This document shows positions 2,268-62,086 of a stretch of 64,000 nt of DNA, piece by piece. Under the pieces are notes generated by a model that was not told where the DNA came from, searched no databases, and saw nothing but the letters and a program-made list of their open reading frames with translations. The number at the start of each line of letters is the position of its first letter. Position 1 is the stretch's first letter. Both the position numbers and the translations under genes were made by a program. The stretch is taken from NCBI GenBank assembly GCA_021771915.1, contig JAETNY010000004.1:1-64000 (forward strand). The letters are read 5' to 3'. The DNA is from Bacillota bacterium (GTDB lineage Bacteria > Bacillota > Dehalobacteriia > UBA4068 > UBA4997).

Positions 2268-2765
2268 ATGGCATATGTTAGCGTACCTGCGGATTTGGGC
2301 AGGGTGCGGAGTAAAATAATGTTTGGGCTGACTTTGCGGCAGCTGACGTGCTTTGGTAGCGGAGCGGCCATTGGCCTGCCCCTGTATTTTGGCTTGAAAG
2401 CCGGGCTTAAATGCAGCTCCAGCCTTTCGGCTATGGCAATGGTGCTTATTATGCTCCCCTTTTTCCTGCTGGCAATCTATGAAAAGAACGGCCAGCCTTT
2501 GGAAAAGGCGGCGGCCAACATTATCCGGGTTATCTTTATCCGGCCAAAAAAGCGGCCATATAAGATAGATAATTTCTATTCGCTGTTAGGCAGGCAGAAT
2601 ACTTTAGAAAGAGAGGTGGCGCATATTGTGGCAAACGGCCAGAAAAATCGGGAGCTGCTTTTACCGCCTGTTTGGGACGGCAGACAGGCCAGGCAATGCG
2701 GAGTCGGCAATAAGGACGGCAAAAAGCGGCGCAAAAAAATCAAAAAAGCTGTCAAGTGCAGATAA
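2268..2765 (+). CDS. PrgI family conjugation membrane protein
   Basis: A 165-residue protein with the typical PrgI start (AYVSVPADLGRVRSKI...), two central membrane segments (about residues 30-75) and a basic C-terminal tail. PrgI is a VirB3-like partner of VirB4 in Gram-positive type IV secretion systems. The start ATG follows the previous stop directly and has gaggggagg as ribosome site. The last 140 bases overlap the VirB4 frame, so the Lys/Arg-rich tail (GKKRRKKIKKAVK) is encoded over the VirB4 N terminus. Confidence 0.85.
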   Translation: MAYVSVPADLGRVRSKIMFGLTLRQLTCFGSGAAIGLPLYFGLKAGLKCSSSLSAMAMVLIMLPFFLLAIYEKNGQPLEKAAANIIRVIFIRPKKRPYKIDNFYSLLGRQNTLEREVAHIVANGQKNRELLLPPVWDGRQARQCGVGNKDGKKRRKKIKKAVKCR

Positions 2766-5121
2766 ACGGCAGATTGAAGCGGCTATTCAAAAAGCCAGAC
2801 GAAATAATGGCAAAGAATTATCCGCCCAGCAAAGTATTCCCTATGAGCGCATTTGGCCAGAGGGTATCTGCCGGGTTAAGGATAATTTCTATACCAAAAC
2901 GATTGTCTTTCAAGACATAAATTACCAACTTTGCCAACAGGAGGATAAGCAGGCGATTATCGGCGGCTGGTGCGATTTCCTTAACTACTTCGATAACTCG
3001 GTCAGAGTGCAAATTGGCTTTTTGAACCTACCCCTGTCGGGTGGCGTTCATCGGCAGATAAAGTTTTCTGCGCAAGAGCCGGAATATGAGGAGGTTTGTG
3101 ATGAATATTCCGAGGTTTTGCAAAAACAGCAGGCCAAAGGTAACAACGGCCTTAATAAAAGTAAATATATCACCTTTGGCATTGAGGCCAAAAATCTGAA
3201 AGAAGCCAAGCCCAGACTGGAGAGGCTGGAGCTGGATATTCTAAATAATTTCCGCCACTTGGGAGTTGTGGCGCAGCCCTTATCCGGCAAAGAAAGATTG
3301 GAACAGCTATTAAATATCTTTCAGCAGGGTACGGAGCAAAAGGCGGAGTTTCGCTTTAATTGGGATTGGCTGCCGGTAAGCGGACTATCCACAAAAGATT
3401 TTATAGCGCCCTCGTCTTTTGAGTTTAGCGGCAGCCAGTGGTTCAGAATGGGCAGTCTTTTTGGTGCGGTTTCCTTTGTGCAGATAATAGCGCCGGAATT
3501 AAACGACCGAATGCTGGCCGATTTTTTGGATTTGGACAGCAGCCAGCTGGTGAGCCTGCACATTCAGCCTGTCGACCAGACGGCGGCCATTAAGCAGGTG
3601 AAGCGCAAGATTACCGATTTAGACAGGCAGAAGATTGAGGAGCAGAAACGAGCGGTACGCTCCGGCTACGATATGGATATTATCCCCTCGGATTTGGCCG
3701 CCTACGGCGTGGAGGCTAAAAAGCTGCTGGAGGATTTGCAAAGCCGCAACGAGCGAATGTTTATGGTAACATTTTTAATCGTAAACATAGCGAACACTAG
3801 GCGGCAGTTAGATAATGATATGTTTCAGGCAGCAGGCGTGGCGCAGAAGCATAATTGCCGGCTGGTGCGTCTGGACTGGCAGCAGGAACAGGGCTTTATG
3901 AGCTGCCTGCCATTGGGTTACAACCAGATTGAAATTGAACGTGGTTTAACCACCGGCAGCGCCGCTATTCTGGTTCCCTTTACCACGCAGGAGCTGTATC
4001 AGGAGAGGCCGGAAGCATTGTATTATGGACTGAACGCCCTATCCAATAACCTTATTATGGCCGACCGCAAGCAGCTAAAAAATCCCAACGGTTTAATCCT
4101 GGGCACTCCCGGCAGCGGTAAAAGCTTTGCTGCCAAGAGGGAGATATTGAATGTGTTTCTGGCTACGGCAGACGATATATTGATTTGCGACCCAGAGGCC
4201 GAGTATTATCCGCTTGTGGAGCGATTGGGCGGTCAGGTGGTAAAAATATCCCCAGTGAGCAGGCAGTATGTAAATCCGCTGGACTTAAATTTGAATTATT
4301 CTGATGATGAAAATCCTCTTTCGCTGAAAGTGGATTTTATTTTGTCCTTTTGCGATGTAATTATCGGCAGCAATGCAAAGCAGGGTTTACAGCCGGTGGA
4401 AAAGACGGTTATTGACCGCTGCGTCAGGGCGGTTTACCGGAATTTTCTTGCGGAGCCAATACCGGAGAAAATGCCAATTTTAGAGGATTTGTATAACGAG
4501 CTTTTACAGCAGCCGGAGCCAGAGGCTAAAAGGATAGCGGCGGCTTTAGAGTTGTACGTTTCTGGCAGCTTGAATGTGTTTAACCACCGAACTAATGTTG
4601 ATATCAATAAGCGCATTGTCTGCTATGACATCAAGGAGTTGGGCAAGCAGTTAAAGCAGCTGGGAATGCTGGTTATTCAAGACCAGGTCTGGAACCGGGT
4701 TACAGTCAACCGGGCGGCAGGCCGGGCTACCCGCTATTATGTGGACGAGTTTCACCTGCTGTTAAAGGGTGAATTGGCTGCCTGGAGCGTGGAGATTTGG
4801 AAGCGGTTCCGCAAATGGGGCGGTATTCCGTCAGGTATCACGCAAAACTCGAAAGACCTCCTTGCCAGCCCGGAGATTAGCAACATTCTGGAGAACAGCG
4901 ACTTTATCCTGATGCTCAATCAGGCCAGAGGGGACAGGGATATTCTGGCTAAACAGCTTAATATCTCGCCCCACCAGCTGTCTTATGTAACCCAAAGTGG
5001 GGCTGGCGAGGGGCTGCTTTTTTACGGCAATGTAATCCTGCCCTTTATCGACCACTTTCCGCAGGATAACAGTCTGTATAGATTGCTAACGACAAAGTTG
5101 TCTGAAATGCAAGAACAATAA
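2626..5121 (+). CDS. VirB4-like conjugal transfer ATPase
   Basis: An 831-residue VirB4/TraE ATPase, the motor that energises assembly of the conjugative channel. Walker A is GTPGSGKS at residues 493-500 and the Walker B-like stretch is YYVDEF near 704-709. The family-typical N-terminal block (QQSIPYERIWPEGICRV, then FQDINYQL) is present. The longest start is TTG 2626, preceded by gagaggtgg at good spacing, giving a 140-base overlap with prgI. The first 45 residues are variable and may not be essential. It belongs to the CD1110-type group of clostridial ICEs. Confidence 0.93.
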   Translation: MWQTARKIGSCFYRLFGTADRPGNAESAIRTAKSGAKKSKKLSSADKRQIEAAIQKARRNNGKELSAQQSIPYERIWPEGICRVKDNFYTKTIVFQDINYQLCQQEDKQAIIGGWCDFLNYFDNSVRVQIGFLNLPLSGGVHRQIKFSAQEPEYEEVCDEYSEVLQKQQAKGNNGLNKSKYITFGIEAKNLKEAKPRLERLELDILNNFRHLGVVAQPLSGKERLEQLLNIFQQGTEQKAEFRFNWDWLPVSGLSTKDFIAPSSFEFSGSQWFRMGSLFGAVSFVQIIAPELNDRMLADFLDLDSSQLVSLHIQPVDQTAAIKQVKRKITDLDRQKIEEQKRAVRSGYDMDIIPSDLAAYGVEAKKLLEDLQSRNERMFMVTFLIVNIANTRRQLDNDMFQAAGVAQKHNCRLVRLDWQQEQGFMSCLPLGYNQIEIERGLTTGSAAILVPFTTQELYQERPEALYYGLNALSNNLIMADRKQLKNPNGLILGTPGSGKSFAAKREILNVFLATADDILICDPEAEYYPLVERLGGQVVKISPVSRQYVNPLDLNLNYSDDENPLSLKVDFILSFCDVIIGSNAKQGLQPVEKTVIDRCVRAVYRNFLAEPIPEKMPILEDLYNELLQQPEPEAKRIAAALELYVSGSLNVFNHRTNVDINKRIVCYDIKELGKQLKQLGMLVIQDQVWNRVTVNRAAGRATRYYVDEFHLLLKGELAAWSVEIWKRFRKWGGIPSGITQNSKDLLASPEISNILENSDFILMLNQARGDRDILAKQLNISPHQLSYVTQSGAGEGLLFYGNVILPFIDHFPQDNSLYRLLTTKLSEMQEQ

Positions 5122-5218: not shown

Positions 5219-5368
5219 ATGGAAAAACAATTAAAATATCTGCTGCTTTTGGCGGCGAAACTCACAGATATTACCGAGGGGCTGGTTGAGATTTGCAGCC
5301 AACTGGCCGATGGAATATCTGGCGAGGCTGAAGATTATGAGCAGCCGGAGAATAACAGCTTTGACTAA
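5219..5368 (+). CDS. Small ICE protein (49 residues)
   Basis: An ATG with an excellent ribosome site (gcggaggga) opens a 49-codon frame beginning MEKQLKYLLLLAAKLTDITE, with an amphipathic/hydrophobic N-terminal helix and an acidic C terminus. It lies between virB4 and the NlpC/P60 gene and overlaps the beginning of the latter, so translational coupling is likely. Function unknown. The ribosome site and the tight overlap are the reasons to call it real. Confidence 0.55.
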   Translation: MEKQLKYLLLLAAKLTDITEGLVEICSQLADGISGEAEDYEQPENNSFD

Positions 5369-6599
5369 AATTCTCTTTGACGATGAATATGAGAGCGAGG
5401 ACGGACGCAGCGAATATGCAGCGACCAAAACAGTAAGTAATTATCTAAATAGGCGAAAAAAGCAAAACCAGAAAAGGAGCATTAAGAAAAAATATGCGAC
5501 GGCGCTTCGGCAAAAGAAAACGGCTGCGGCGCAAAAGGCGGCAGCCAGCCAAAGCAAAAGTCTGGCCGTTCTGCGCCAAAAATCTAAACGCAGCTTAACG
5601 CTGGCGCTGGCTATATTGCTGTTGGCCGGTTTTTGCCTAAACTGCGTAAACGGCTGCACAATGCTGCTGCAAGGGGGACTTTCCGCTTTGGGCGGCTCAA
5701 CCTATCCCAGCCGGGACGAAGATATGCTAAGAGCCGAGGCCGTTTATGCGGAAAGCGAAAGGGAACTGCAAAGCTATCTGGATAGTTATGAGCAAACACA
5801 TTCTTATGATGAATACCACTTTGAATTGGACGAAATCGGCCACGACCCTTATGTGCTAATCTCGCTGCTGACCGCTTATCGGGGCGGCGGCTGGCGATTT
5901 GCCGATGTGGAAGAACTAATCGAGGAGCTGTTCGACCGGCAATATCTGTTGGTGGAAAGTGTGGAAATGGAGATCCGCACCGACGCAGAGGGCAACAATT
6001 ACCCCTGGTATGTGTGCAATGTGGAGCTGCATAATCGGGATTTGGCGCAGCAAACGGCCATTTTGCCGCAGGACAGGCTGGAACTGTACGCTTTGTATAT
6101 GCGCACTTTGGGCAACCGACCGGATTTGTTCGACCGGGCGGAATACCCTAACGCTTTGGTAATTGAGCCGCCGCTGATTTACGAAATACCGCCGGAGGCT
6201 ATGGCCGACGAGGTATTTGCGGCGATGATTGCCGAGGCTGAAAAATATCTGGGCTATCCTTATGTTTGGGGCGGCAGCAATCCCAGCACCAGCTTTGATT
6301 GTTCCGGCTTTGTCTGCTGGGTAGTCAATCATACCGACGGTTTAGCCAATGTGGGCAGAACGACGGCTAACGGCCTGCGCAGTTTAACAACGGCGGTTGC
6401 ACCGTCTAACGCTCAACCGGGGGATTTGGTGTTTTTCAAGGATACTTACGCTAATGCGCCTGATGGGGCCAGCCACGTTGGCATTTATGTTGGAAATGGA
6501 ATGATGATACACTGCGGCTCGCCTATCTCTTACGCAGATATTACGGATAGATATTGGCAAAATCACCTGCTGGGGTTCGGCAAGTTAAACAGAAATTAA
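5337..6599 (+). CDS. NlpC/P60 wall hydrolase of the conjugation machine (CD1108-type)
   Basis: About 420 residues from ATG 5337. The N-terminal region is very basic, followed by one membrane segment (about residues 85-105), an extracellular middle part and a C-terminal NlpC/P60 peptidase: catalytic Cys in FDCSGF (residue 322) and His in SHVGIYVGNG (residue 380). It most likely opens peptidoglycan locally for the mating channel. Family alignment (the TKILFDDEY block near the start) would also fit a TTG at 5361, which overlaps the previous stop; TTG 5286 is less likely. It is followed by the DUF4315 and DUF4366 genes as usual for these ICEs. Confidence 0.85.
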   Translation: MSSRRITALTKILFDDEYESEDGRSEYAATKTVSNYLNRRKKQNQKRSIKKKYATALRQKKTAAAQKAAASQSKSLAVLRQKSKRSLTLALAILLLAGFCLNCVNGCTMLLQGGLSALGGSTYPSRDEDMLRAEAVYAESERELQSYLDSYEQTHSYDEYHFELDEIGHDPYVLISLLTAYRGGGWRFADVEELIEELFDRQYLLVESVEMEIRTDAEGNNYPWYVCNVELHNRDLAQQTAILPQDRLELYALYMRTLGNRPDLFDRAEYPNALVIEPPLIYEIPPEAMADEVFAAMIAEAEKYLGYPYVWGGSNPSTSFDCSGFVCWVVNHTDGLANVGRTTANGLRSLTTAVAPSNAQPGDLVFFKDTYANAPDGASHVGIYVGNGMMIHCGSPISYADITDRYWQNHLLGFGKLNRN

Positions 6600-6615
6600 A
6601 AATTTGGGAGGTTAT

Positions 6616-6906
6616 ATGAACGCAAATAAAAAGAAAATTGATAAATTGAATTTGGAGTATGCCAAAAATGATGAGAAGATTGCCTGGCTAATGGAGCGGC
6701 AGCGAGAGATTGAAAAGCAGCGCACCGAGCTGGAAAATCTGGATATTGTGAGAATGGTGCGAGGTCTGGGTTTGAGTTTTGACGATTTATCCGAACTCAT
6801 CAACGGCGAAAAGGCGGCGGCAGAACTCAAAAATGACGTTTCGGCAGCCTATGAAACCGCTGTGGAGGAATATGCCGAGGCCGAGGGAGGCGTTTGGAAT
6901 GGTTAA
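6616..6906 (+). CDS. DUF4315 family ICE protein
   Basis: A 96-residue protein starting at ATG 6616 behind gggagg. The first 45 residues form a charged coiled coil ([20 protein letters not shown]...) followed by [21 protein letters not shown], the signature stretch of DUF4315. The family is found only in conjugative elements, between the NlpC/P60 and DUF4366 genes, as here. Its function is unknown; a cytosolic scaffold for the channel is a guess. The stop overlaps the start of the next gene by 8 bases. Confidence 0.8.
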
Positions 6907-7627
6907 AGCCCGGCGCATTTCCGCCCTGCTGCTTGTTCTGCTGCTCTGCCTTAGCATTAACTGCTGCACAAAACCAGCTTATGCTTTGGTTATAGAAGAA
7001 ACACCGGAACAAACCGAGTTAAATGCAGTGCAGGACTGGAGCAATCCCAACGCCTTAACCCCGGAGGGAAATTTAACTCTGGTAGACGACGTGCAGCCGT
7101 TCAATTCTTCGGATAAAGAGTTTTTGACTGTTCAAACCAAAAGCGGCAATTACTTTTACATCATCATTGAGAGGGATAATGACGGCAAACAGAATGTGCA
7201 TTTCTTAAATCAGGTGGACGAGGCGGATTTGCTGGCTTTGCTGGAAGATGAGCCAAAAGCAGAAAAACCGCCTGCCTGCATTTGTAAAGGTCAGGATAAA
7301 TGCTTTGTCGGCTCCGTCAACACTGCCTGTGAGGTCTGTGCCGTCAGTATGCAGGATTGTCTGGGCAAAGAAATTGTCCAGGCGGAGCCGGAACAGGATA
7401 GCAAAGCCAAGCCAATGGCCGCTTTAGGCGTGCTGCTGGCATTGCTGGCAATCTTCGGCGCAGGCGGTTTCTATCTCTTTAAGAGTATTGCGGCCAGAAA
7501 CGCTAATAAGCAGCCTGCCCCGGATTTTGATGATGAAGATGACGATGATTATCTGGAAGACGACGAGGAGGTGGAAATGGAGAAAGATACGGAAAATGAC
7601 AGCGAGGGAGATGATGAAGAAACTTAA
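6899..7627 (+). CDS. DUF4366 (CD1107-type) membrane-anchored ICE protein
   Basis: A 242-residue protein from ATG 6899 (ribosome site gagggagg, overlapping the DUF4315 stop). It has a signal peptide (about residues 1-30), an extracellular middle part with a Cys cluster (CICKGQDKC, then CEVC and DC), a membrane segment near residues 175-200 and a strongly acidic tail. This layout is that of DUF4366 proteins, found in clostridial ICE transfer modules and presumed to be part of the extracellular face of the channel. No enzymatic motif is visible. Confidence 0.8.
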
Positions 7628-7777: not shown

Positions 7778-10700
7778 ATGGAACAAAATATCAGAAGCAA
7801 CTATAAGCGTCTGCTGGCCTTTGTGCTGATGTTTGCGGTACTGTTTGGCCAGTTTATGCCCTTTATGCCGCAGAATGTGGCCTACGCCGCCCAGCAGAAC
7901 AGCTATCACGACCCTGCCAAACATTGGACTACGGCCAGTAACCGCACCAATGAGCTGGACGCTAACTCGGTAACAAGCCAGGAAACTTTTTTGTGTTACA
8001 ACTGCGGCAAAGCCACCCAGTTTACGGTTTGGCGTACCCCGGAATATACCAGGGACGGCAACAGCGATTTAACGAGAAATGTTAAATATTCCGACGGCAC
8101 AATGGTGGACGGAGTAACCAAGGGCAATGTCAACGGCGGTAAACCCGGCGTAAACGCCTACTATACGCAGCACCATTGGACGAAAGCCGCCTGCTCCCAG
8201 TGCGGCAATTTCAACAGCCAGATGGACAACACCGAATATTGCTTTAACAAAAACGTCTACTGGCTCTATGACTGCGCCGCCGAATTTATGCAGGATTTGG
8301 ACGAGAAAGTCAGTTATGAGTATGCCGACAGTCAGTATCATAAGGAAACCAGAGAGGGCGGTAAATACTGCGCCTTTTGTTATGGCACAATTCATAAGCA
8401 AAGCAGCCGTCTGGTTCCGCATAATCTGGCTAAGGAGGTTCTGCCCCAGCTGGCAAACCAGAGGTTCGCTATCGTGTCCCACTGTACCGACTGCGACTAT
8501 GTAAAAACGGAATATGTGGCCGCCAAGGCAGTAATCGCCGATTATTACGGCGTGGTGGACGGACAGCCGCATACCATTACGGTCAGCGACCTTTCCGAGG
8601 CCGGCGTTCGGGCTTCCATACGCTACGGAACCAGCGCCAATAACTGCAACTTAACCAGCGCACCTAACTTTACGGAACAGGGACAATATACGGTCTATTA
8701 CAGTATTACCTACAAGCTGAATAGTGTTGAAATGATCGAGGACGGCGTAGCCTATGTGTGGCTGCACGAGGAGCGGGAGCCGGACGGAGACTGCGCCTGC
8801 GGCTGCGGCGATCCGAACTGCGATTGCCGCAAACCCAACTGTAACGGCGGTTGCTGTCATACCAGCTGTGGAGATAACCATAAGTTTTCTTTAATTGAAA
8901 GCATTAAACCCACCTGTCTGGCTCTGGGTTATGACCGCTATCTGTGTGTGAACTGCGGCAAAATTGAAAAGCGAGATTATGTGGACTCTCTGGGGCATTC
9001 TATGCAGCAGATTTTAATCCGGGAGGCTACCTGCGAGGTTGACGGCAAGGTGCTGAATATTTGCTCCCGCTGCGGTTTAACGGAGGTTGAATATACCCCC
9101 AAAGGCGAGCATAAATACAGCAGCTTCAATGTGGCTCCCTCCTGCACCAGTCCCGGCTATACGGTTAAGGAGTGCAGCGTTTGTGGAGATAGACATATTG
9201 TGGCTATGACCGAGGCTTTGCCGCATAATTATGAGGCGCACCCGGTACTGCCCACCTGCACCACCGGCGGACAAACGACCTACATTTGCGAGGGCTGCGG
9301 CAGCACTTTTATCGGCGACCATACGGAACCGCTTGGCCACACCTGGAATGATGGTGTTTATCTTGTGGAGCCAACCTGTGCCGAGGACGGCGTTATTGAA
9401 TTTACCTGCACCAGATGTGGAGCTACTAAAAGAGTGGTTGAGGAAAGCGGCCTGCACTCCACCTGCGCCGGAACTATCAACAATGCACATAAAATGGCAA
9501 TGAATACGGTTCTGGCAACCTCACAGGTTAAAGCGCCTATGTTGCAGGCAGGTAATATGGTTTTGGATAAGGCGACGACTGCCACTGCCACGGCGGCGGC
9601 CAGCAAAGCGGGCGGCGGCCATATTGTGGGCAGCCCGGCAACCTGCCTGAACCCTCAAACCTGCGTGGTGTGCGGAGCTGTTTTGGCGGAGGCCACCGGC
9701 CACCGCTACTGGCAGGAAACCACCGCCCCGACCTGTACCGAAATGGGCTACACTACCTACACCTGCATTAACTGTAACCAAAGCTACAAAAGCGATTATC
9801 TGAATGCTTTGGGGCATAATTATGCCGAGCAGGTAACCGCTCCCAGCTGTACCAGTCAGGGCTTTACCACTTACACCTGCCGCAAATGTGGGGACAACTA
9901 TGTGGGCAATTACCGGGAGATGACCGACCACGTTTGGGACAGCGGTACGGAAAAGGTAAATGCCACCTGCAATGGAGCTGGAATTACCGAGTATCACTGC
10001 AAAAAATGTGATGCGGTACGTCTGGAAACCGCTAACGCCGCCGGACATACGGCAGGAGCGGCGGCGGACTGCACCAATCCCCAGCTTTGCACCCAGTGTG
10101 GGGCAGTTCTCCAAAACGCCAAAGGGCACCGTCTGGAGCAGAAAGTAACCGCTCCTACCTGCGAAAGTATCGGCTACACCACTGTAACCTGCAAGGATTG
10201 TGGTCTGAATTACAAAACCGATTACACCGATCATTTGGGGCACAGCTATCAGCCGGAGGTTACAAAACCCACTTGTCTGGAAAGAGGTTATACTACTTAC
10301 ACTTGCGCCAGCTGTGGGGACAGTTACACTTCGGATTATACCGAGCCTGTCGGCCATATTTGGGATAACGGCAAGCTGGTGGTTAGCGCTACCTGCGGCG
10401 GAGCCGGGATTACTGAATATCACTGCCAAAACTGCGAGGCTACCAGACTGGAGAATGAAGCGGCGGCCGGTCATACGCCGGGCAAAGCTGCAACCTGCAC
10501 CGAAGCGCAAATCTGCACCGACTGTGGAGCCATACTTCAGCAGGCATTGGGGCACAGCTTCAAGGAGGAAGTAATCGCTGCAAATTGTCTGGATATGGGC
10601 TACACTACCGTAACCTGCCAAAACGAGGGCTGCGGTTACACCTACAAGACGGATTACACCAGGCCGCTGGGGCATAACTATCTGCCGGAGATTACGTCTG

Positions 10701-12961
10701 CCAGTTGCACCGAGGGCGGTTACACTACCTACACCTGCGAACGCTGTGGGGACAGCTATACTGCGGAATACACCGAGGCTGTCGGCCATAAGTGGGACGC
10801 TGGCAAAACGGTAGTTAATTCGGTCTGCAACAATGACGGTATGACGGAGTACCGCTGCGAAAACTGTAACGAAGTGCGTCTGGAGGCACAGTCCGCTTCT
10901 GGCCATACGCCGGGGGCAGATGCCAACTGTTTAGAGCCGCAGGTCTGCACCAAATGTGGGGCGATTTTGAATAAAGCAACCGGCCATAATTTCCAGGCAG
11001 AAGTAACCCCGGCTGCCTGTCTGGATATGGGCTACACCACTTTCACCTGTGCAAATTGTGAGTTCAGCTACAAAACGGAATATACCAAACCGCAGGGGCA
11101 TAATTACCAACCAGAGGTAACCGTTCCTACCTGTTTAGAGAAAGGCTTTACCACTTACACTTGTCAGAATGAGGGCTGTGAAGACAGTTATGTTGCCGAC
11201 TATGTTGAGGCCACCGGCCATAAGTGGGACGGCGGCAAAACGGTAACCGAATCGGTTTGCAACGGCGAGGGAATGACGGAATATCGCTGTGAAAGCTGCG
11301 GCCTGCACCGGCTGGAGGCTAAATCCGCCCTTGGGCATACGCCAGGAGCGGCGGCCACCTGCACCGAGCCGCAGGTTTGCACCAGATGTAACGCTATATT
11401 GAAAGCGGCCACCGGCCACGATTATGTGAGCAAGGCAACCGCTCCGACCTGTGAGCAAATGGGCTTTACTTCGCACACCTGCAAATACTGTGGAGATAGC
11501 TACAAGAGCGATTATCTGGACGCTGCCGGTCATACCTCCGGCGAATGGGTTGTGGACAAGCAGCCAACTTTAACTGCCGAGGGAAGCAAACACAAAAGCT
11601 GCACCAAGTGTGGCAAGGTTCTGGAAACCGAGGTTATTGAGCAAGTTTACAACCAATCTGTAACCGACGGTAAAGGCGAAGCCACCGTTGGCCAATATCT
11701 GGTAACGGTTGCGGATACCGAGAGTAAAAATCCCGTTGTTGGCGCTGTTGTGAACCTTAATACTGACAATTCTATTTCGGTAAATCTGCCCGGCAATAGA
11801 TTACTGGACTATGCGGTGCAAACTACTGTTAAGGTGCAGCTTAAGACGGATAACAGCCAGAATTGGCAGGTCGTATCGGCAATGGCTGTGTCTGTAACCG
11901 ACGTTAATAAGAACTATTCCGCCGGCAAAACCGACGCTAACGGCCAGCTTGTTGTGCCTGCCACTTCCGGCAACACCAACACCGACGGCGTGGTAACCAT
12001 TGGCAAAACTGACGACGGCGTTAAGCAAACGCTGACGGTCAAGGTGTTCAAGGACGGCACCAAGCGCCCGATTAAAGACGCTGCGGTGGATACCAATAAG
12101 GACGGCGACGTTAAGGTGCAGCTGCCCAAAGGCGTGGATATGGACGAGGAAAACCGTATCGGCGTTTTGGTGAGCGACCATAAGCAGCAGCCGCAGGATA
12201 AGGTCAATGTGGATATTAAGGGCGATTTAAAGCAGCAGGCCGAGGGAGCAACGGATAAGGACGGCGAAGTTATTTTGCCGGAAACTCCGGCAGAAACCGA
12301 GCGGCACAGCGCCTACATTGTGGGCTACACCGACGGCACTTTCCGCCCGGAGGCTCAGATAACCAGAGCCGAAGCGGCGGCTATCTTTGCCCGTCTGCTG
12401 GCCGAGGCTAAGAATGAGCATATTTCTCCGGCCAAATACACCAACTTTAGCGATACGACGGTTAGCGCCTGGTATGCGGATTATGTTAATTATCTGACCG
12501 GCTATGGGGTTATTGTAGGTGAAAAATCTACTTTCCGGCCTAACGAAGATATTACCAGAGCGGAACTGACGGCGATGGCAGTACGCTTCTTTGAAGTAAC
12601 CGGCAAAGAGTTGGAGAATGCGGACAGTAAAAACAAGAACAACACCAAGAAATTTAACGATGTTTCCAACAGCTATTGGGCGGCGGAATATATTGAGGAC
12701 GCTGCGCTTTATGGCTGGGTACAGGGTTATGGCAACGGAAGCTTCAAGAGCGAGGCCAAAATTACCAGAGCCGAGGCGGTAACCCTCATCAATAACCTGC
12801 TGGAACGTTCTGCGGACAGCGAATATATCTCGAACAATGGCCGCAGGCTTAACACTTTCAGCGATGTTTACGCCAAACATTGGGCATACGCCGCTATTCT
12901 GGAGGCAGCCAACAGCCATAATGCGGTGGTAGATAAGGAAACAGAAACCTGGAACAGATAA
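7778..12961 (+). CDS. Giant SLH-anchored surface protein with Cys-x2-Cys repeats
   Basis: A 1,727-residue exported protein. A signal peptide (about 1-38) is followed by a Cys-rich region to about residue 1,290 made of short units of the form C...GYTTYTCxxC...GH, then a Thr/Val/Asp-rich region, and three SLH domains (from about residue 1,508, each with GY/TFRP and ITRAE motifs) that bind secondary wall polymers. It is probably a large fibrous adhesin held in the S-layer. In related ICEs this place can carry a surface adhesin; here it may promote contact in mating or host binding. The many Cys pairs may hold zinc or disulfides. Ribosome site aaagga precedes ATG 7778. Confidence 0.85.
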   Translation: MEQNIRSNYKRLLAFVLMFAVLFGQFMPFMPQNVAYAAQQNSYHDPAKHWTTASNRTNELDANSVTSQETFLCYNCGKATQFTVWRTPEYTRDGNSDLTRNVKYSDGTMVDGVTKGNVNGGKPGVNAYYTQHHWTKAACSQCGNFNSQMDNTEYCFNKNVYWLYDCAAEFMQDLDEKVSYEYADSQYHKETREGGKYCAFCYGTIHKQSSRLVPHNLAKEVLPQLANQRFAIVSHCTDCDYVKTEYVAAKAVIADYYGVVDGQPHTITVSDLSEAGVRASIRYGTSANNCNLTSAPNFTEQGQYTVYYSITYKLNSVEMIEDGVAYVWLHEEREPDGDCACGCGDPNCDCRKPNCNGGCCHTSCGDNHKFSLIESIKPTCLALGYDRYLCVNCGKIEKRDYVDSLGHSMQQILIREATCEVDGKVLNICSRCGLTEVEYTPKGEHKYSSFNVAPSCTSPGYTVKECSVCGDRHIVAMTEALPHNYEAHPVLPTCTTGGQTTYICEGCGSTFIGDHTEPLGHTWNDGVYLVEPTCAEDGVIEFTCTRCGATKRVVEESGLHSTCAGTINNAHKMAMNTVLATSQVKAPMLQAGNMVLDKATTATATAAASKAGGGHIVGSPATCLNPQTCVVCGAVLAEATGHRYWQETTAPTCTEMGYTTYTCINCNQSYKSDYLNALGHNYAEQVTAPSCTSQGFTTYTCRKCGDNYVGNYREMTDHVWDSGTEKVNATCNGAGITEYHCKKCDAVRLETANAAGHTAGAAADCTNPQLCTQCGAVLQNAKGHRLEQKVTAPTCESIGYTTVTCKDCGLNYKTDYTDHLGHSYQPEVTKPTCLERGYTTYTCASCGDSYTSDYTEPVGHIWDNGKLVVSATCGGAGITEYHCQNCEATRLENEAAAGHTPGKAATCTEAQICTDCGAILQQALGHSFKEEVIAANCLDMGYTTVTCQNEGCGYTYKTDYTRPLGHNYLPEITSASCTEGGYTTYTCERCGDSYTAEYTEAVGHKWDAGKTVVNSVCNNDGMTEYRCENCNEVRLEAQSASGHTPGADANCLEPQVCTKCGAILNKATGHNFQAEVTPAACLDMGYTTFTCANCEFSYKTEYTKPQGHNYQPEVTVPTCLEKGFTTYTCQNEGCEDSYVADYVEATGHKWDGGKTVTESVCNGEGMTEYRCESCGLHRLEAKSALGHTPGAAATCTEPQVCTRCNAILKAATGHDYVSKATAPTCEQMGFTSHTCKYCGDSYKSDYLDAAGHTSGEWVVDKQPTLTAEGSKHKSCTKCGKVLETEVIEQVYNQSVTDGKGEATVGQYLVTVADTESKNPVVGAVVNLNTDNSISVNLPGNRLLDYAVQTTVKVQLKTDNSQNWQVVSAMAVSVTDVNKNYSAGKTDANGQLVVPATSGNTNTDGVVTIGKTDDGVKQTLTVKVFKDGTKRPIKDAAVDTNKDGDVKVQLPKGVDMDEENRIGVLVSDHKQQPQDKVNVDIKGDLKQQAEGATDKDGEVILPETPAETERHSAYIVGYTDGTFRPEAQITRAEAAAIFARLLAEAKNEHISPAKYTNFSDTTVSAWYADYVNYLTGYGVIVGEKSTFRPNEDITRAELTAMAVRFFEVTGKELENADSKNKNNTKKFNDVSNSYWAAEYIEDAALYGWVQGYGNGSFKSEAKITRAEAVTLINNLLERSADSEYISNNGRRLNTFSDVYAKHWAYAAILEAANSHNAVVDKETETWNR
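9607..11440 (+). repeat. Four ~430-bp super-repeats inside the surface-protein gene
   Basis: Segments beginning at the GHTPG-type motif and its downstream CGAIL block recur near 9,607, 10,037, 10,463, 10,900 and 11,330, a period of about 430 bases (about 143 residues). Each super-repeat contains four different Cys-x2-Cys units in the same order. Copies differ in sequence, so they are older than very recent slippage. Estimated by eye. Confidence 0.75.
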
Positions 12962-12990: not shown

Positions 12991-13046
12991 ATAGCAAAAT
13001 GGCCGCCTTGCGATATGTTTTTTAATCGCAGGGCGGTCATTGCTAT
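12991..13046 (+). terminator. Long hairpin before topoisomerase III
   Basis: Left arm 12,991-13,014 and right arm 13,025-13,046 pair over about 21 positions (atagca/tgctat at the base, ggccgcc/gggcggtc in the middle, gcgat/atcgc at the top) with a two-base bulge and two mismatched or G-U positions. T-runs occur in the loop but not after the right arm, so termination would be weak; it separates the surface-protein gene from topB and may be an attenuator or RNA stop/processing signal. Confidence 0.5.
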
Positions 13047-13072
13047 ATCTAAATAAGAATGGAGGAATTTGT

Positions 13073-14866
13073 TTGAAAGAAAAACTAAAGTTAGTGATTA
13101 GCGAAAAGCCCAGCGTAGCAATGAATTTGGCGAAAGTGTTGGGCGCAAATACCAGAAAAGATGGCTATCTGGAGGGAGCCGGCTGGCTGGTTAGCTGGTG
13201 TGTTGGCCATCTGGCCGGGCTGGCTGCGCCGGAGGTTTACAACAAGGATTATGCCAAATGGCGCAGGGAGGATTTGCCGATTTTGCCCAGCGGCAGCTGG
13301 CGAATGACGGTTACGGAAAACACCAGAGGTCAGTTTGAAATCCTCAAAAAGCTGCTGCGTAGAAGTGATGTGGAATATGTAGTAAACGCCTGCGACGCTG
13401 GCAGGGAGGGCGAGTTAATCTTTAGGAGCGTTTATCACCTGGCCGGGTGCGATAAACCCATAAAGCGGCTTTGGATAAGCAGTATGGAAGAAGCCGCTAT
13501 CCGGGAAGGCTTTGCCAACCTCCGACCGGGCGAAGATTTTGCAGGGCTTTACCGGGCGGCTTTGTGTCGGGCAAAGGCGGATTGGCTGGTTGGAATTAAC
13601 GCCACTCGCCTGTTTTCCCTGCTCTATGGCCGGACTTTGCATATTGGCCGGGTAATGTCCCCCACGCTGGCAATTGCGGTGGAGAGAGAAGCGGAAATCG
13701 CCGCTTTTCAGCCGGAAACCTTTTACAGTGTGGAAATCCAGTGTGGCGATTTGAAGCTGACCAGTAAAAGAATGGCAGATAAAAAGGCGGCTGAAGATTT
13801 GGCAGAAGCTTGCGCAAATACTTCTGTTACAATTCAACAGGTTGAGCGTCAGGAGAAAAGCGAAAAACCGCCCCTGCTCTATGATTTGACCGCTTTACAG
13901 CGAGAGGTCAATCGCCGGGTTGGCTACACCGCCCAGCAAACGCTGGACTATCTACAAGCATTGTATGAAAAAAAACTGGTAACCTACCCCCGAACGGACA
14001 GCCGCTATCTGACCGAAAATATGCAAAGCATTGTGGCGGATTTGGTACAAACAGCGTCGGCAGTCTGCGGCCTTATCGCTCCGGCGGAAATTCTGGCAGC
14101 GCAGGTCTGCAATACCGCTAAAGTGAGCGACCATCACGCTGTTGTGCCGACTAAAACCTTAACCGCAGATAAAGTCAAAGATTTGTCCAAGGGGGAAAAC
14201 GCTATTCTGGGACTGGTCTGTTTTGGGCTGCTCCGAGCTGTGGCCGCCCCCTACCGTTACGTTCAGACTAAAGTTACCGCTGAATGTGCAGGAAAAATAT
14301 TTTCAGCCGGATATAAAGAAATTTTAGATTACGGTTGGCGGCAATATTACCCCAAAGATATAACTGGGGATAAATTTGACATTGAATTGAGCGAGGGGCA
14401 ACAGCTAGCCGTTGGGGCGGCAAACATTAAGCAGGGCCAAACCGAACCTAAAGCCCACTTCACCGAGGATACCATCCTAGCGGCAATGGAAAAGGCTGGC
14501 AATAAAGAAATGCCGCAAGATATAGAGCGCAAAGGCATTGGTACTCCGGCTACCAGAGCCGGTATTTTGGAAAAGCTGGTGAACGTGGGACTGCTGGAGC
14601 GCAAAAAGAGCAAAAAGGCGGCTAATCTACTGCCCACCAAGCTGGGTCAGGCTTTAATCACCATTCTGCCGGAGGAACTGCAATCTCCGCTGCTTACTGC
14701 TGAATGGGAGCAACGGTTGTTGGAAGTAGAAAACGGCAGTTTGTCCGAGGAAGAATTTATTCAGGGCATTGAGGATCTGATAAGCGGTCTGGTTAAGGAT
14801 TGCCGGGCGGTTCCCGGAGCCGAAGCTTTGTTTCCGCCTATACAGCGGAGGGCAAAGAATGGCTGA
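13073..14866 (+). CDS. topB: DNA topoisomerase III (type IA) of the ICE
   Basis: A 597-residue type IA topoisomerase that relaxes and decatenates single-stranded or gapped DNA. The Toprim domain begins LKLVISEKPSVA, with the acidic motif NACDAGREGELIF around residue 107; the active-site Tyr lies in TYPRTDSRYL (residue 305). The TTG at 13,073 follows ggaggaattt, so I use it and not the longer frame. Topoisomerase III is a regular part of clostridial ICEs and probably helps process the element during transfer. The stop overlaps the next gene by 8 bases. Confidence 0.93.
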   Translation: MKEKLKLVISEKPSVAMNLAKVLGANTRKDGYLEGAGWLVSWCVGHLAGLAAPEVYNKDYAKWRREDLPILPSGSWRMTVTENTRGQFEILKKLLRRSDVEYVVNACDAGREGELIFRSVYHLAGCDKPIKRLWISSMEEAAIREGFANLRPGEDFAGLYRAALCRAKADWLVGINATRLFSLLYGRTLHIGRVMSPTLAIAVEREAEIAAFQPETFYSVEIQCGDLKLTSKRMADKKAAEDLAEACANTSVTIQQVERQEKSEKPPLLYDLTALQREVNRRVGYTAQQTLDYLQALYEKKLVTYPRTDSRYLTENMQSIVADLVQTASAVCGLIAPAEILAAQVCNTAKVSDHHAVVPTKTLTADKVKDLSKGENAILGLVCFGLLRAVAAPYRYVQTKVTAECAGKIFSAGYKEILDYGWRQYYPKDITGDKFDIELSEGQQLAVGAANIKQGQTEPKAHFTEDTILAAMEKAGNKEMPQDIERKGIGTPATRAGILEKLVNVGLLERKKSKKAANLLPTKLGQALITILPEELQSPLLTAEWEQRLLEVENGSLSEEEFIQGIEDLISGLVKDCRAVPGAEALFPPIQRRAKNG

Positions 14867-24268: not shown

Positions 24269-25291
24269 ATGGAGATAATGGAATGGGTTTTTGAAAATCT
24301 AAATTACAAGAACAAGTCAGGTAAGATAGCCATATTTGTATTATATGTAATATACTTTTTCAATTTACTATTTATGGTTTTAACTCAACAAAAGATGGAT
24401 TATGGTACATTTTTGGTACAGTTATTTTTTTTAATAATTATAACTATATGGATTTATATGGCACCTTATTTTTATAATGATATTTTAAGTTTGAAGAGTT
24501 TATTTACAAATAATGATGAATATAATAGTGAATATAACAAAATGAAAAATAAAATTTATCTATTTAAATTTAAGGACAACAGTTCTATTTGCAAAATAAT
24601 AAAGCTAGTTTACATTATAATTGGAATTGTTATTCTATTATATGAACTTTATTATTTTTATATATATTATGAATGTCAATTAAATTTTAATAATTTTTTT
24701 GCGATTGTTTTAGTGGTAGTGTCATTTTTGTTAAATTTTTCAAGTTATTATTTAAGTTTAGAATTAACTTATCTTATAAGGAATATTTCCAAATTAAGCA
24801 ATTTAAAATATAACATATTTATTCCATCTAGCACATATGAATTTGTAAAATTGAAAAAGAATGTTGATAATGCTTCAATCGTTTTTCTTATTATTGTTGT
24901 CCTTTATAATCTTTCTTATATAACTTTATTAATTGCTAGGACTAACCAAAACAATACATTAGAAATTTTATCTGCTTTATGCTTTCTAATATTTAGTATA
25001 TTTAGTTGTTTTTATGCTACGGTATTACCAAAATATTACCTTTATCAGCTTTTTTTTAATTGGAAAGAATTATCATTAAAGAAGTTTCAAGAAAAACTTT
25101 ATAATACAATGGAGAATAAAAGCTCTTATAAGCAAATTGAAAAAATAGTAAGAAAAATCAATCGATTGAATAATGATAAAGTAGAATTTGGCTTAGTAAG
25201 TAAATTTGGAACAATAGTTGGTTTAAGTACAATAATATATAATTTTATACAAATTTCTTCTTTGATAAAAGAAACGATAAATGGGTGGTGA
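24269..25291 (+). CDS. AT-rich multi-spanning membrane protein of unknown function
   Basis: 340 residues from ATG 24,269 (aaggag nine bases before; ATG 24,263 is too close to it). I see about six membrane segments in the first 270 residues and a last hydrophobic stretch at the C terminus, with a charged helical part (about 275-315) between. Two 60-base lines that I counted have 17% and 22% G+C, against 48% in a line of the relaxase gene; Asn, Ile, Tyr and Lys are abundant. It splits the usual mobC-relaxase pair and overlaps the relaxase start by 11 bases. I recognise no family. Exclusion, defence or toxin-immunity roles fit such a place, without direct evidence. Confidence 0.7.
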   Translation: MEIMEWVFENLNYKNKSGKIAIFVLYVIYFFNLLFMVLTQQKMDYGTFLVQLFFLIIITIWIYMAPYFYNDILSLKSLFTNNDEYNSEYNKMKNKIYLFKFKDNSSICKIIKLVYIIIGIVILLYELYYFYIYYECQLNFNNFFAIVLVVVSFLLNFSSYYLSLELTYLIRNISKLSNLKYNIFIPSSTYEFVKLKKNVDNASIVFLIIVVLYNLSYITLLIARTNQNNTLEILSALCFLIFSIFSCFYATVLPKYYLYQLFFNWKELSLKKFQEKLYNTMENKSSYKQIEKIVRKINRLNNDKVEFGLVSKFGTIVGLSTIIYNFIQISSLIKETINGW

Positions 25292-26699
25292 TGTATATAC
25301 GGCAACGACAAGGTTTATTCCCCTGCACACAGGCAAAGGCCGTAAAGCTGGTAAAGCCATAAGTGAAATTATTGATTATGTGGAAAACCCGGAAAAGACG
25401 GATAACGGCAAACTTATCAGCAGCTATGAGTGCGACAGCCGAATTGCCGACGCTGAATTTGCTCTATCCCAAAGAATTTACCAAACCAAAAGCGGCAGGG
25501 AACAAAAAGAAAACGACGTTATAGCCTACCAGATAAGGCAGTCCTTTAAGCCGGGCGAGATAACCCCGGAGGAAGCCAACCGACTGGGCTATGAATTAGG
25601 AATGCGCTTTACCAAAGGACAACACGCCTTTATTGTCTGCACGCATATTGACCGCTGCCATATTCATAACCATATAATCTTTTGTTCTGCCAGTTTGGAC
25701 TGCACAAAAAAGTTTACTAATTTTTGGAACAGCGGTAAAGCAATACGCAGATTAAGCGATATTATTTGTATCGAGAATGGCTATTCGGTTATTGAGGAAC
25801 CAAAACGCCGCCGGGGTTTAAGTTACAACCGCTGGCAGGAGCAGCAGGGAATTGAAAATAAGACCTCGCATAGAGATATACTGCGGCAGGCCATAGATAA
25901 GGCTCTATCTCAAAAGCCCAAAGATTTTGACAAGCTGCTGAAGCTGTTGCAAACAGATAATATTGAGGTTAATAAGCGAGGCAAAAACTGGCGTTTGAAA
26001 GCGGCAGACTGGCAGCAGTTTGTCAGGTTAGACAGCCTGGGCGCTGGCTATGCCGAGGCTGAATTAGCAGCGGTTTTGGCTACCGGCCAAGCGATTAAAC
26101 CAAAGGAAAAAATAAATCTGCTGGTAGATATTCAGCGGAAATTGGCCGAGGGTAAAGGCGGCGCTTATTCCCGTTGGGCCAGCGTATTCAACTTAAAGCA
26201 GATGGCAAAAACATACAACTATCTGAATGAAAATAACCTGCTCAGCTATGAGGAATTGGCTGTTAAAACTGCGGCGGCCAGCGAGCGTTACAATGAGTTA
26301 TCCGGTCTGATCAAGATTGCGGAAAAACGAATGGCGGAGATTGCCGTCTTGAAAACGCATATTATCAATTACGCTAAAACCAGGGAAGTATATGTGGCGT
26401 ATCGCCAGGCCGGCTATTCCAAAAAGTTTGCCTCCGAACACGAAAGCGCCTTGCTGCTGCATAAGGCGGCGAAGCAGTTTTTTGACGAGGCCGGTTTGAA
26501 AAAGCTGCCCACTGTTAAAAGCTTGCAGGCCGAATATTCCCGGCTGCTAACGGATAAGAAAGCGGCTTATGGAGAATACCGGCAGGCCAGAGAGGAAATG
26601 AAAGAGCTTTTAACAGTTAAGGCCAATGTGGATAGTTTGCTGGAGATAGACGCAAACAAAGAAAAAATAAATCAGCGAGAGCCGGAGGCAAATCGTTGA
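25281..26699 (+). CDS. Relaxase / mobilization endonuclease (HUH type)
   Basis: 472 residues. The N-terminal relaxase domain has the metal-binding HUH motif HIDRCHIHNH at residues 122-131 and the family start (RFIPLHTGKGR, IIDYVENPEKT). It nicks oriT and is carried covalently on the transferred strand. The C-terminal half is helical and charged. The only in-frame ATG (25,281) overlaps the stop of the upstream AT-rich gene, and it lacks a clean ribosome site of its own, so translation is probably coupled. The conserved block begins six residues later, which suggests that the original start was changed by the insertion. Confidence 0.9.
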   Translation: MGGDVYTATTRFIPLHTGKGRKAGKAISEIIDYVENPEKTDNGKLISSYECDSRIADAEFALSQRIYQTKSGREQKENDVIAYQIRQSFKPGEITPEEANRLGYELGMRFTKGQHAFIVCTHIDRCHIHNHIIFCSASLDCTKKFTNFWNSGKAIRRLSDIICIENGYSVIEEPKRRRGLSYNRWQEQQGIENKTSHRDILRQAIDKALSQKPKDFDKLLKLLQTDNIEVNKRGKNWRLKAADWQQFVRLDSLGAGYAEAELAAVLATGQAIKPKEKINLLVDIQRKLAEGKGGAYSRWASVFNLKQMAKTYNYLNENNLLSYEELAVKTAAASERYNELSGLIKIAEKRMAEIAVLKTHIINYAKTREVYVAYRQAGYSKKFASEHESALLLHKAAKQFFDEAGLKKLPTVKSLQAEYSRLLTDKKAAYGEYRQAREEMKELLTVKANVDSLLEIDANKEKINQREPEANR

Positions 26700-26938: not shown

Positions 26939-27985
26939 CTAGTTACGATGTTTGAGTTTGGGAAGATATTGACTGCGCTCCTGCTGTGGACTATTGAGAG
27001 CGTCCATAGCCTTTTCAGCGGATAAGCTTAATGTAGTGATTAAGCTTTGAATGTTTGCCAGCCTTTCTGCAAATCTACCTTTTTCAATGCCTTTTTCAAT
27101 ACCTTTTTCAATACCAATATCAATACCTTTAGCAATACCCTTATCTTCTATTGCCTGACTAAGATTACACATAATTTCAAACTCTCCTTTCATTTCTTTG
27201 CTCATAATAACGCCAAATTTCTCCTGTAAAATTCTTTCTCGTTCTTCACTTTCTATTTCGGTGGAAAGAATAACTTCCAGTAATTCTAAAATACCCTCAT
27301 GATTTTTATCTTCCCTGCGGCCAAGCCCAATTATGAAAACTGACAGCAAATCATAATGAGCCGGATCTTCTTTAGCGCTGCCAACCAGATTTTTCTCAGC
27401 TATATAATACTGATTTATTGTATTACGGCGTTCCTTTGTGGGATTTTTACAAACCCAAATAGATACCACTTTCTTTATCTGTTCATAATGTGATTTAGTA
27501 AATTCTCTGTTATATTGAGCTGAAATCATACGGCAGCAATAGAACAGACCACGCTTAGTCAAAGGATAACCGGGGTTCCATTGTGATTGAGCCTCCACAT
27601 TCACAATCAATCTGGTTAAGCCATCTCTTTTAGGAGCTGTTGCATAGAAACGAATATCGTATACAATAGTTCCCTCTTTGGCCAAAGTATCTTCATTGGC
27701 TGCGCCGTTGATGAGAATATTCTCATCGGGCAATACTGGCGTTGTGCTTATCTCCGGCTCGCCCTCAATATATTTTTCGGCAATATCATTTACATTACAA
27801 TCTTTATATTCTTCCATACAGCCTTTCATTATCCAAGCCAGAAAGATTTTGATAGATAATATTCTTTTGCAGGAAGAGTCAAAAAGAGTTTTCTGGTTAT
27901 CTTTAGTTCTGCTGTTTTCTGCGTTATGGATATTCTGTTCCGTTGCAGTACGGATAATTTGAGCGATGGGCGTTTCAGTCTTCAT
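26939..27985 (-). CDS. Rpn-type PD-(D/E)XK nuclease / recombination-promoting transposase family protein
   Basis: 348 residues, convergent to the relaxase. The nuclease core shows VYDIRFYA then LIVNVEAQSQW, the Asp...Glu-x-Gln pattern of the Rpn/PD-(D/E)XK family transposases, and the C-terminal region has the tandem GIEKGIEKG motif typical of these proteins. Related Rpn proteins are DNA endonucleases that stimulate RecA-independent recombination; some paralogues have been linked to phage defence. No inverted repeats mark it as an autonomous transposon. Ribosome site aaggagtag precedes the ATG on the minus strand. It is the first cargo gene after the transfer module. Confidence 0.8.
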   Translation of the reverse strand: MKTETPIAQIIRTATEQNIHNAENSRTKDNQKTLFDSSCKRILSIKIFLAWIMKGCMEEYKDCNVNDIAEKYIEGEPEISTTPVLPDENILINGAANEDTLAKEGTIVYDIRFYATAPKRDGLTRLIVNVEAQSQWNPGYPLTKRGLFYCCRMISAQYNREFTKSHYEQIKKVVSIWVCKNPTKERRNTINQYYIAEKNLVGSAKEDPAHYDLLSVFIIGLGRREDKNHEGILELLEVILSTEIESEERERILQEKFGVIMSKEMKGEFEIMCNLSQAIEDKGIAKGIDIGIEKGIEKGIEKGRFAERLANIQSLITTLSLSAEKAMDALNSPQQERSQYLPKLKHRN

Positions 27986-54383: not shown

Positions 54384-54726
54384 GCCAAAAAACTCAATGT
54401 CACCAGCAGAAAGAGCCAAGCAATTTATGCCTTTTGCGGCTGTTAAGGGACTTAATGCAGCGTTGCGTCGCAAAGAACAGGAAATGGGTTTGGTTTCGCC
54501 CAAGCTTTTGGCTGATGAGGCTGCGGCGGAATTGGACGCTAAACTGCGGCAGTTGCAAAAGGGCAGTCTTGTTGCAGTGACATATTTTGTCAACGGTCAA
54601 TATTTGCAAAATAGCGGTCAGATACTGGTTTTGGATAAGATACATCGCTGCTTATTACTGTCTGGCGTTAGACCGTTGCAAATAGCTTTTGACGATATCA
54701 TAGATATAAAATCAGCGATAGATTAA
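54373..54726 (+). CDS. YolD-like family protein
   Basis: 117 residues from GTG 54,373 (ggagg 9-13 bases before); overlaps the polymerase stop by 11 bases. SPAERAKQFMPFAAVKGL is the YolD signature. YolD-like proteins are small partners encoded after UmuC-type polymerases in Gram-positive bacteria and probably regulate them. The stop overlaps the stop region of the convergent surface-protein gene by four bases. Confidence 0.85.
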   Translation: MVNKPKNSMSPAERAKQFMPFAAVKGLNAALRRKEQEMGLVSPKLLADEAAAELDAKLRQLQKGSLVAVTYFVNGQYLQNSGQILVLDKIHRCLLLSGVRPLQIAFDDIIDIKSAID

Positions 54727-60000: not shown

Positions 60001-60030
60001 AAAAGGCGCTTTGTAAAGCGCCTTTTTATT
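60001..60030 (+). terminator. Terminator after gdhA
   Basis: aaaaggcgcttt and aaagcgcctttt pair perfectly, with T residues after the stem and A residues before it, so it can act for the convergent gene too. Confidence 0.9.
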
Positions 60031-61756: not shown

Positions 61757-61970
61757 TTTGCGGCTCCTCAACTTAATTTTTTTGGTTAAAACACAACTAT
61801 AATCATAGATTAGCACGAAAAAAAGTATATGTCAACACTTTTGTGCAACTTTATGCATTTTAATTAAATACTTCGTTTCAGAAGTTACCATGACTGAGCA
61901 ATGAGCATAAGAAATATCTTTATATTGATATGGTATAGTATAGTGGGGTGCAGCACAAAGCCGAATAAAA

Positions 61971-62012: not shown

Positions 62013-62086
62013 TGGAGCGAGTGAAGGGAATCGAACCCTCGCTAAAAGCTTGGGAAGCTCTTGTTCTGCCATTAAACTACACTCGC
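62013..62086 (-). tRNA. tRNA-Gly (anticodon CCC)
   Basis: On the minus strand the 7-base acceptor arms gcgagtg and cactcgc pair, the T arm carries GGGTTCGATTCCC, and the anticodon loop is TTCCCAA, giving anticodon CCC. The CCA end is encoded (62,013-62,015 on the complement). No mobile element is joined to it. Confidence 0.92.

Follow-up and report, generated by a model that had tools for sequence, protein, structure and literature searches.

The gene at 7778..12961 (+) of the window, by which we mean the whole 64,000-nucleotide stretch of DNA analysed, encodes an exported, SLH-anchored Cys/His-repeat protein of 1727 residues. Taken as a whole chain of steps, the protein can with evenly balanced confidence be read as a zinc-stiffened stalk, held on the wall by its SLH repeats, that presents a conserved head, most likely for contact between donor and recipient cells. 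A sequence-only reading had described an exported, SLH-anchored product with more than 20 Cys-x2-Cys pairs, and each of these points holds: an N-terminal signal peptide is recognizable by eye, three SLH repeats are confirmed at E 8e-29 (99.8 bits against a Pfam cut-off of 20.8), and the ATG-initiated ORF specifies 92 Cys arranged to give 26 Cys-x2-Cys pairs, compared with 4.8 on average and at most 15 in 2000 residue shuffles of the same protein. A surface location is very likely. The layout of the protein is as follows.

7778..12961 (+): whole gene for the exported, SLH-anchored Cys/His-repeat protein, 1727 aa (ORF, Pfam, sequence)
7778..7888 (+): signal peptide, aa 1-37, with the cut between NVAYA and AQQN read by eye
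7895..8518 (+): conserved head, aa 40-247, in which four Cys-x2-Cys pairs are invariant
8519..8773 (+): Ig-like domain, aa 248-332, from structure comparison of the predicted model
8774..8872 (+): Cys-rich linker, CxCGCGxPxCxC...CC, of low model confidence
8876..11644 (+): stalk of 24 His-Cys-CxxC units, aa ~367-1289 (sequence, ligand counts)
9698..11413 (+): four super-repeats (a-a-c-D) within the stalk, aa 641-1212 (spacing, label shuffles, model)
11645..12301 (+): probable bacterial Ig-like/Big domains, aa 1290-1508 (Pfam, family C-termini)
12317..12778 (+): three SLH repeats, the wall anchor (Pfam)

The stalk units hold 71 of the 92 Cys, and the Cys-rich linker that precedes them is missing in the Monoglobus copy. 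At the opposite end, SLH is matched at E<=0.01 in 49 of 50 family C-termini (51 complete proteins minus L074, the split Monoglobus copy being represented by its second ORF), while Big_1 is matched at the same threshold in 37 of the 50, the window protein's own C-terminus lying outside these 37. Pyruvylated wall polymer has a role in SLH anchoring. The window's genome contains one polysaccharide pyruvyl-transferase match and no sortase match, which makes SLH the workable anchor in this host. Across 13 family-carrying genomes, pyruvyl-transferase is matched in 11 and sortase in 7, with no sortase match in the other 6; since sortase occurs in some carriers only, the family appears to use SLH regardless of host sortase. 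Other SLH proteins occur as well: the window's genome gives 78 SLH repeat matches, and the window itself encodes two more SLH proteins (54723-58346 and 60029-61816, both on the minus strand) near a tRNA at 62016-62086, one of them with seven Listeria-Bacteroides repeat matches.

In the proposed mechanism, the signal peptide would export the element-encoded protein and the three SLH repeats would hold it on the wall. The 24 small beta units, each probably built around one structural zinc coordinated by a His and three Cys (His2Cys2 in the last), would form a stalk that lifts the head and the Ig-like domain beyond the envelope. The head would contact another cell, most likely a recipient, and the adjacent type IV machinery would then transfer DNA. 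Zinc may serve to stiffen a long rod where an anaerobic host may hinder disulfides. The constancy of head and anchor on either side of a variable stalk suggests such a presenting role. Surface proteins in this position have precedent: the available part of a review describes wall-anchored adhesins as often used instead of pili in Gram-positive conjugation (PMC12857230), and CTn1-like elements carry LPXTG/CnaB surface proteins according to the available part of a further paper (PMC3158075).

The genetic setting bears directly on the proposed mating role. The window begins at a contig end, already inside a mobile element that includes the following genes.

2626..5121 (+): VirB4-like ATPase, CD1110 family (NF045971, 1059 bits, cut-off 325)
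5286..6599 (+): CD1108-family protein with NlpC/P60 peptidase (Pfam, NCBIfam)
6604..6906 (+): DUF4315 protein (Pfam)
6779..7627 (+): CD1107-like mobile element protein (Pfam), its start probably later than the ORF start
13040..14866 (+): gene directly downstream of the SLH protein gene (ORF), its product presumably a topoisomerase, as named from sequence
25281..26699 (+): MobA/VirD2-like relaxase (PF03432), probably belonging to the same element

Carriage by a conjugative element, already claimed from the letters alone, is thereby borne out by CD1110 VirB4, CD1108, CD1107 and relaxase genes; the element is of the CD1110/CD1108/CD1107 type, which we take to be the Tn1549/CTn4-type conjugative element. 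The CD1108-DUF4315-CD1107 block (window 5286-7627) also precedes the gene in L019, L020, L022 and L024 at 59-91% identity, so that the surface gene occupies a fixed slot in the window's genus. The CD1110 VirB4 model finds matches in 5 of 9 genomes of the genus, above cut-off in four. Of its six matches in the window's genome, those on contigs C13, C18 and C21 lie beside an intact copy of the family gene and that on C3 beside a disrupted one, while on C39 the match is cut off by the end of its 5.5-kb contig and on C46 it is a fragment with which the contig begins. The fragment on C46 is followed by a gene (L186 1275-7283, G000:C46) for a 2002-aa SLH protein without Cys-x2-Cys, which may be a distinct surface protein belonging to some other element. 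A further small feature of the window is a 12-bp tandem repeat of 5.3 copies at 27076-27139, inside a minus-strand ORF that gives a weak, below-cut-off PD-(D/E)XK transposase match.

The association with mobile elements extends well beyond this genome. A search with head profile A1 returned 72 loci in genome contigs, some of which derive from genomes of the window's genus (G003, G004, G005 and G007), and 3 in viral contigs; together with the Monoglobus plasmid and the four copies in the window's genome, these make up the 80 family loci. The surface Cys array had first been called unusual; it is not a one-off, but belongs to a family of 72 loci on several kinds of mobile element. By cluster labels, some of them assumed names, a conjugation or element gene neighbours 64 of the 72 loci and 53 of the 55 that are well flanked (>=5 kb on at least one side). 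Counting genes named by Pfam or NCBIfam, a conjugation or plasmid gene lies nearby at 56/72 loci (45/55 well-flanked), a transfer gene at 34/72 (29/55, two of which, L088 and L091, rest only on similarity to the CD1108-like NlpC protein) and a coupling protein at 26/72 (24/55). A rough figure, estimated from 53 coupling-protein matches in 17 family-carrying genomes (about 3 per 2.6 Mb), places 2-3% of random genes within 10 kb of a coupling protein, versus the 24/55 observed. All 165 of 165 named neighbours across the 80 loci share the gene's own strand. Placed in this way among transfer and replication genes, the protein most likely serves in contact between donor and recipient; the mating adhesin first suggested from the sequence agrees with both the position and the strand of the gene.

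At least four settings recur. The window's own is VirB4-CD1108-DUF4315-CD1107-[gene]-topoisomerase; the second is RepA-ParB-[gene]-DUF3801-T4CP, the third MobC-relaxase-DUF3801-[gene]-T4CP, and the fourth [gene]-SSB-ParB2-ParM, in which the names SSB and ParB2 are our assumption. Distances between heads follow those of some neighbours and not of others. Spearman coefficients reach 0.70 against VirB4 (11 loci; 0 of 2000 permutations as high) and 0.84 against relaxase (8 loci; 1/2000), compared with 0.11 against the coupling protein T4CP (15 loci; 325/2000), -0.08 against ParB (18 loci; 1366/2000), 0.15 against a VirB6-like protein (132/2000) and 0.19 against RepA (139/2000), the last two on 8-18 loci each. 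This mixed agreement suggests a module that has moved between backbones, recurrent on mobile elements rather than a fixed part of the transfer channel.

The same stalk and head could instead serve the host cell. As cargo, the protein would be an adhesin whose head binds a gut ligand such as mucus, a food glycan or other bacteria, and the element would gain only via its host; this is unlikely, though it carries real weight. The architecture fits it equally. It is opposed by the linkage to transfer and replication genes, and the strand shared with them, on different backbones, and by the finding that all four copies in the window's genome (4/4) adjoin element genes. Pulling the other way are the head distances, uncoupled from coupling protein and ParB, the presence in these genomes of other exported-looking proteins with similar units, and the G003 copy, which adjoins a ParB-like gene and otherwise sits among chromosomal-looking genes. 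The CTn1 protein CD0386 is likewise discussed among possible human-host-acting factors in the available part of its paper (PMC3158075).

Returning to donor-recipient contact, the family gene is itself interrupted by mobile DNA in some copies. In four assemblies, a mobile element breaks it at one Trp codon (head residue 11), the broken copies being L184 7411-10042 (G000:C3), L030 3147-3880, L231 1-816 / L016 (G007:C90) and L100 2424-3253. One left junction is followed by a serine recombinase ORF that matches the Monoglobus one at 44%, and at three right junctions the ends of the element agree at 86-88% identity across about 730 bp; we take the left and right ends to be those of a single kind of element. 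The family gene has the look of a site at which a mobilizable element integrates, and its disruption in several elements implies that it is dispensable, at least when the element is integrated. Two further copies, L230 584-781 and L099 2011-2409, are also interrupted, one about ten codons later and the other at a second His-Trp site, where the ORF that follows presumably encodes a group II intron maturase. Several observations speak against a strict mating role: the uncoupled history of head and T4CP, the 26 of 55 well-flanked loci with no transfer gene in the stretch examined, the disrupted copies and the stalkless ORFs described below.

The stalk is composed of units of 27-40 residues, each with four candidate ligands formed by a His, a Cys and a Cys-x2-Cys pair. 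Super-repeats of about 143 residues had been proposed, and four are found, starting at aa 641, 783, 925 and 1069 with lengths of 142-144 aa (GH-to-GH spacing); a degenerate first block is also present. Each super-repeat comprises units of 38-40, 38-40, 39 and 27 aa. The claimed fixed order is retained, with a mean within-class unit identity of 56.5% that none of 20000 label shuffles reached (best 51.5%). The accompanying claim of four different units is not, units 1 and 2 being nearly indistinguishable (A-A identity 50.5%, A-B 47.9%), and the formula a-a-c-D appears to describe the super-repeat better than four distinct units. Tandem Repeats Finder reports no repeat within the gene, which indicates that the copies have diverged at the DNA level.

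Among parsed loci, the aacD block is repeated in the window's genus, with L058 coming close, while other relatives have bbaacD...T in common and lengthen the stalk otherwise or not at all. The order in the window's genus is bbaacD, then (aacD)n, then the terminal unit; in L064, bbaacD is followed by (abD)n and the terminal unit, and in the Monoglobus-like group by runs of a, with the terminal unit last. The stalk therefore appears, from unit order, to grow between constant ends.

The ligand pattern within the units was recounted across all 80 family loci, 64 of which have units. A His lies 8-14 residues upstream of the lone-Cys position in 708 of 714 units, the six misses lying in the Cys-rich linker. 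A lone Cys without His(-3) is found in 660 units and His(-3) without a lone Cys in 53, whereas both occur together in 1 unit and neither in 9, of which two are real units (L021, L091) and the others belong to the Cys-rich linker or to out-of-register pairs. In 48 of 51 complete proteins the terminal unit carries a His in place of the lone Cys, with exceptions in L021, in L091 and in the Monoglobus copy, which is split and represented by its first half; being a single orthologous unit, the terminal unit does not provide 48 independent cases. Nor are the 80 loci independent, several of which come from one genome or are near-identical (e.g. L073/L075, L102/L103). The subset of 57 loci with the sequence motif used to anchor the unit count, which leaves out 23 of the 80 loci and 9 of the 51 complete proteins, leads to the same reading as the full count (upstream His 581/583; classes 540/43/0/4; terminal swap 40/42). 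In eight non-family proteins with similar units, the extra His is present in 0 of 14 lone-Cys units and His(-3) in 2 of 17 Cys-x2-Cys pairs without a lone Cys, several of these pairs not being clean units. The Cys-to-His swap is weak outside the family, and inside it belongs mostly to one orthologous unit.

Three Cys and one His per unit, with Cys exchanged for His, suggest a tetrahedral metal site, and zinc is the usual metal of such sites. The pattern points to a zinc-site rather than a disulfide signature, and a zinc stalk is, as a reading of its own, probable. Below-cut-off Pfam matches of one super-repeat are consistent with it, zinc fingers standing foremost among them (zf-AN1, E 2.6e-4, 21.5 bits versus a cut-off of 27.9). 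The only PDB-sequence chain to match the repeat region is 9qa6_A, the IgA protease of Thomasclavelia ramosa (E 1.1e-9 over the whole sequence, 1.7e-6 for the best stretch). In the available part of the corresponding paper, the ZBD1/ZBD2 stretches of this protease are described as putative zinc-binding domains whose putative sites combine either two His with two Cys or three Cys with one His, and the ZBD fold is itself only a prediction (PMC12237041).

Disulfides between the Cys pairs would turn the stalk into an EGF-like, metal-free rod. The extracellular location and the Cys-x2-Cys spacing, which is able to form disulfides, would allow this. The presence of three Cys, an odd number, in almost all units, the near-universal upstream His and the Cys-to-His exchange in the last unit stand against it and render it improbable. 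The IgA protease offers a parallel in that it contains 24 Cys, yet disulfides were neither seen nor predicted in it, according to the available part of its paper (PMC12237041). The original description of a metal or disulfide array is accordingly narrowed, with probability, to its first half, the clustered Cys with their His looking like metal sites.

Predicted structures are in keeping with small beta units. AlphaFold2, run with 29 family rows on a super-repeat extended by the unit that follows it, gives an all-beta model with three strands per full-length unit (mean pLDDT 86.6, pTM 0.59). Foldseek comparison of this model with the PDB returns 0 matches at E<=0.001 (best 0.077), and a second structure comparison gives one chain at Z>=2 (Z 2.3, rmsd 3.0, 36 aligned); this null result in the PDB is not taken as proof of a new fold. 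Together with the low pTM, the missing PDB fold match weighs against the proposed reading of the protein. The head is modelled at pLDDT >90 save for its first ~20 residues, and the Ig-like domain behind it reaches a best Z of 6.8 (rmsd 2.8, 77 aligned). The best structural rows for the head+Ig model cover mainly model residues about 209-296, the Ig-like part, and hence have little bearing on head residues 1-208; the top Foldseek row is an archaeal surface-layer protein (E 5.8e-4, TM 0.16), and matches in a viral library are weak and scattered, led by a phage SLH fragment (E 2.1e-5, TM 0.16). Neither head nor units match a Pfam family above cut-off, the head profile finds a single row among PDB sequences (E 0.87), and PHROGs give no match below 0.02. 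Phage records searched with the head give no match, while those searched with the super-repeat yield partial matches in 3 unannotated records.

The family falls among the surface proteins of Gram-positive mobile elements, a known kind. The IgA protease, in the available part of its paper, resembles it through the His...(Cys or His)...Cys-x2-Cys beta units of ZBD1/ZBD2 in a secreted, wall-linked protein (PMC12237041), yet has few such units among other domains and a sortase signal, in contrast to a 24-unit stalk and an SLH anchor; no protease domain was found in the window protein. PrgB/aggregation substance (pCF10-type) is likewise a surface protein whose gene accompanies a conjugation system of Gram-positive bacteria (PMC12857230, available part), and differs in its LPXTG anchor and polymer adhesin domain from the SLH anchor, uncharacterised head and putative mating role proposed here. 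No LPXTG/sortase motif is found at the window protein's C-terminus, which ends after SLH, and Pfam at E<=0.1 returns SLH alone, the fold lists inspected for a polymer adhesin domain being non-exhaustive. Proteins of the CD0386 type are repeat-stalk surface proteins on CTn1-like conjugative transposons of a Clostridia species (PMC3158075, available part), built of CnaB repeats with LPXTG where the window protein has zinc-type units and SLH; Pfam scans of the latter contain no Cna_B row. SLH surface proteins (Sap and others) share the three C-terminal SLH repeats, unlike the conjugative-element carriage and the head and Cys/His stalk without Pfam assignment.

In the available text of the review, Gram-positive mating adhesins are treated as LPXTG proteins, mostly of lactic acid bacteria, and a term search of that text returned no SLH (PMC12857230). 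Titles and abstract starts among the matches listed for the open-licence papers searched hold no description of the family. For gut Clostridia, of which some give no sortase match, the family is a concrete candidate for what brings donor and recipient into contact, and its long natural unit array would suit tests of a metal-binding fold so far only predicted. A broader proposal is more doubtful and is offered tentatively: that the family constitutes a widespread class of conjugation adhesin, the mating surface protein of gut Clostridia that rely on SLH and not on sortase, handed on from one element backbone to another, its zinc-knuckle stalk telescoping and its head having a new fold that recognises recipients.

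By record titles, the 72 loci are nearly all from Clostridia, mostly Oscillospiraceae and unclassified Clostridia, with Peptococcaceae and Avidehalobacter loci near the window's genus. A periplasmic protein of a diderm Negativicute was considered and dropped, the closest loci being titled Peptococcaceae, Bacillota and Avidehalobacter. Two copies (L074, L098) lie in MAGs titled Bacteroidales, through binning error or transfer. The longer head profile A5 matches 7 of 37 genomes of the window's class, with the head itself in five, all of the window's genus, and weak, short stretches in the other two; in a sample of the phylum 7 of 398 genomes give a match, three weakly. All unit matches of the window's genome fall within its four family copies. 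Elsewhere, non-family proteins with such units exist, some exported-looking and in the same genomes as the family, so the units by themselves say nothing about mating.

Variation among the copies bears on two further readings. Surface or entry exclusion, by which the donor would be made a poor recipient for related elements or be screened from phages, is quite improbable: the four copies in the window's genome do differ, as alleles of an exclusion factor could, yet they coexist in one genome, and their first ~290 mature residues (identity to the window copy 75.8-91.8%) vary less than does the Ig-like region next to the anchor (59.4-80.9%), the opposite of what a specificity domain would show. 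A reservoir or scavenger collecting zinc or other metals for the cell, suggested by 24 candidate sites per molecule of the window copy, is very improbable given that the 51 complete proteins range from 7 to 24 units behind a constant head and before a constant anchor, that every site is complete in its four ligands, as structural sites are, and that 0 of 23 recurring neighbour clusters, some of them unnamed, are metal-transporter-like. The metal-binding fibre first suggested from the sequence thus keeps its metal-like sites and loses its metal-collecting role, the knuckles with their terminal Cys-to-His exchange reading as structural zinc sites.

Shorter and split copies occur as well. In L066 (423 aa ORF) and L094 (358 aa ORF), the head is joined to SLH with zero stalk units, through either natural deletion or assembly collapse or error. 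Two-ORF copies are found at L024 (8151-10190 and 10307-13390) and L018 (11899-14508 and 14505-17696), attributable to sequencing error or decay.
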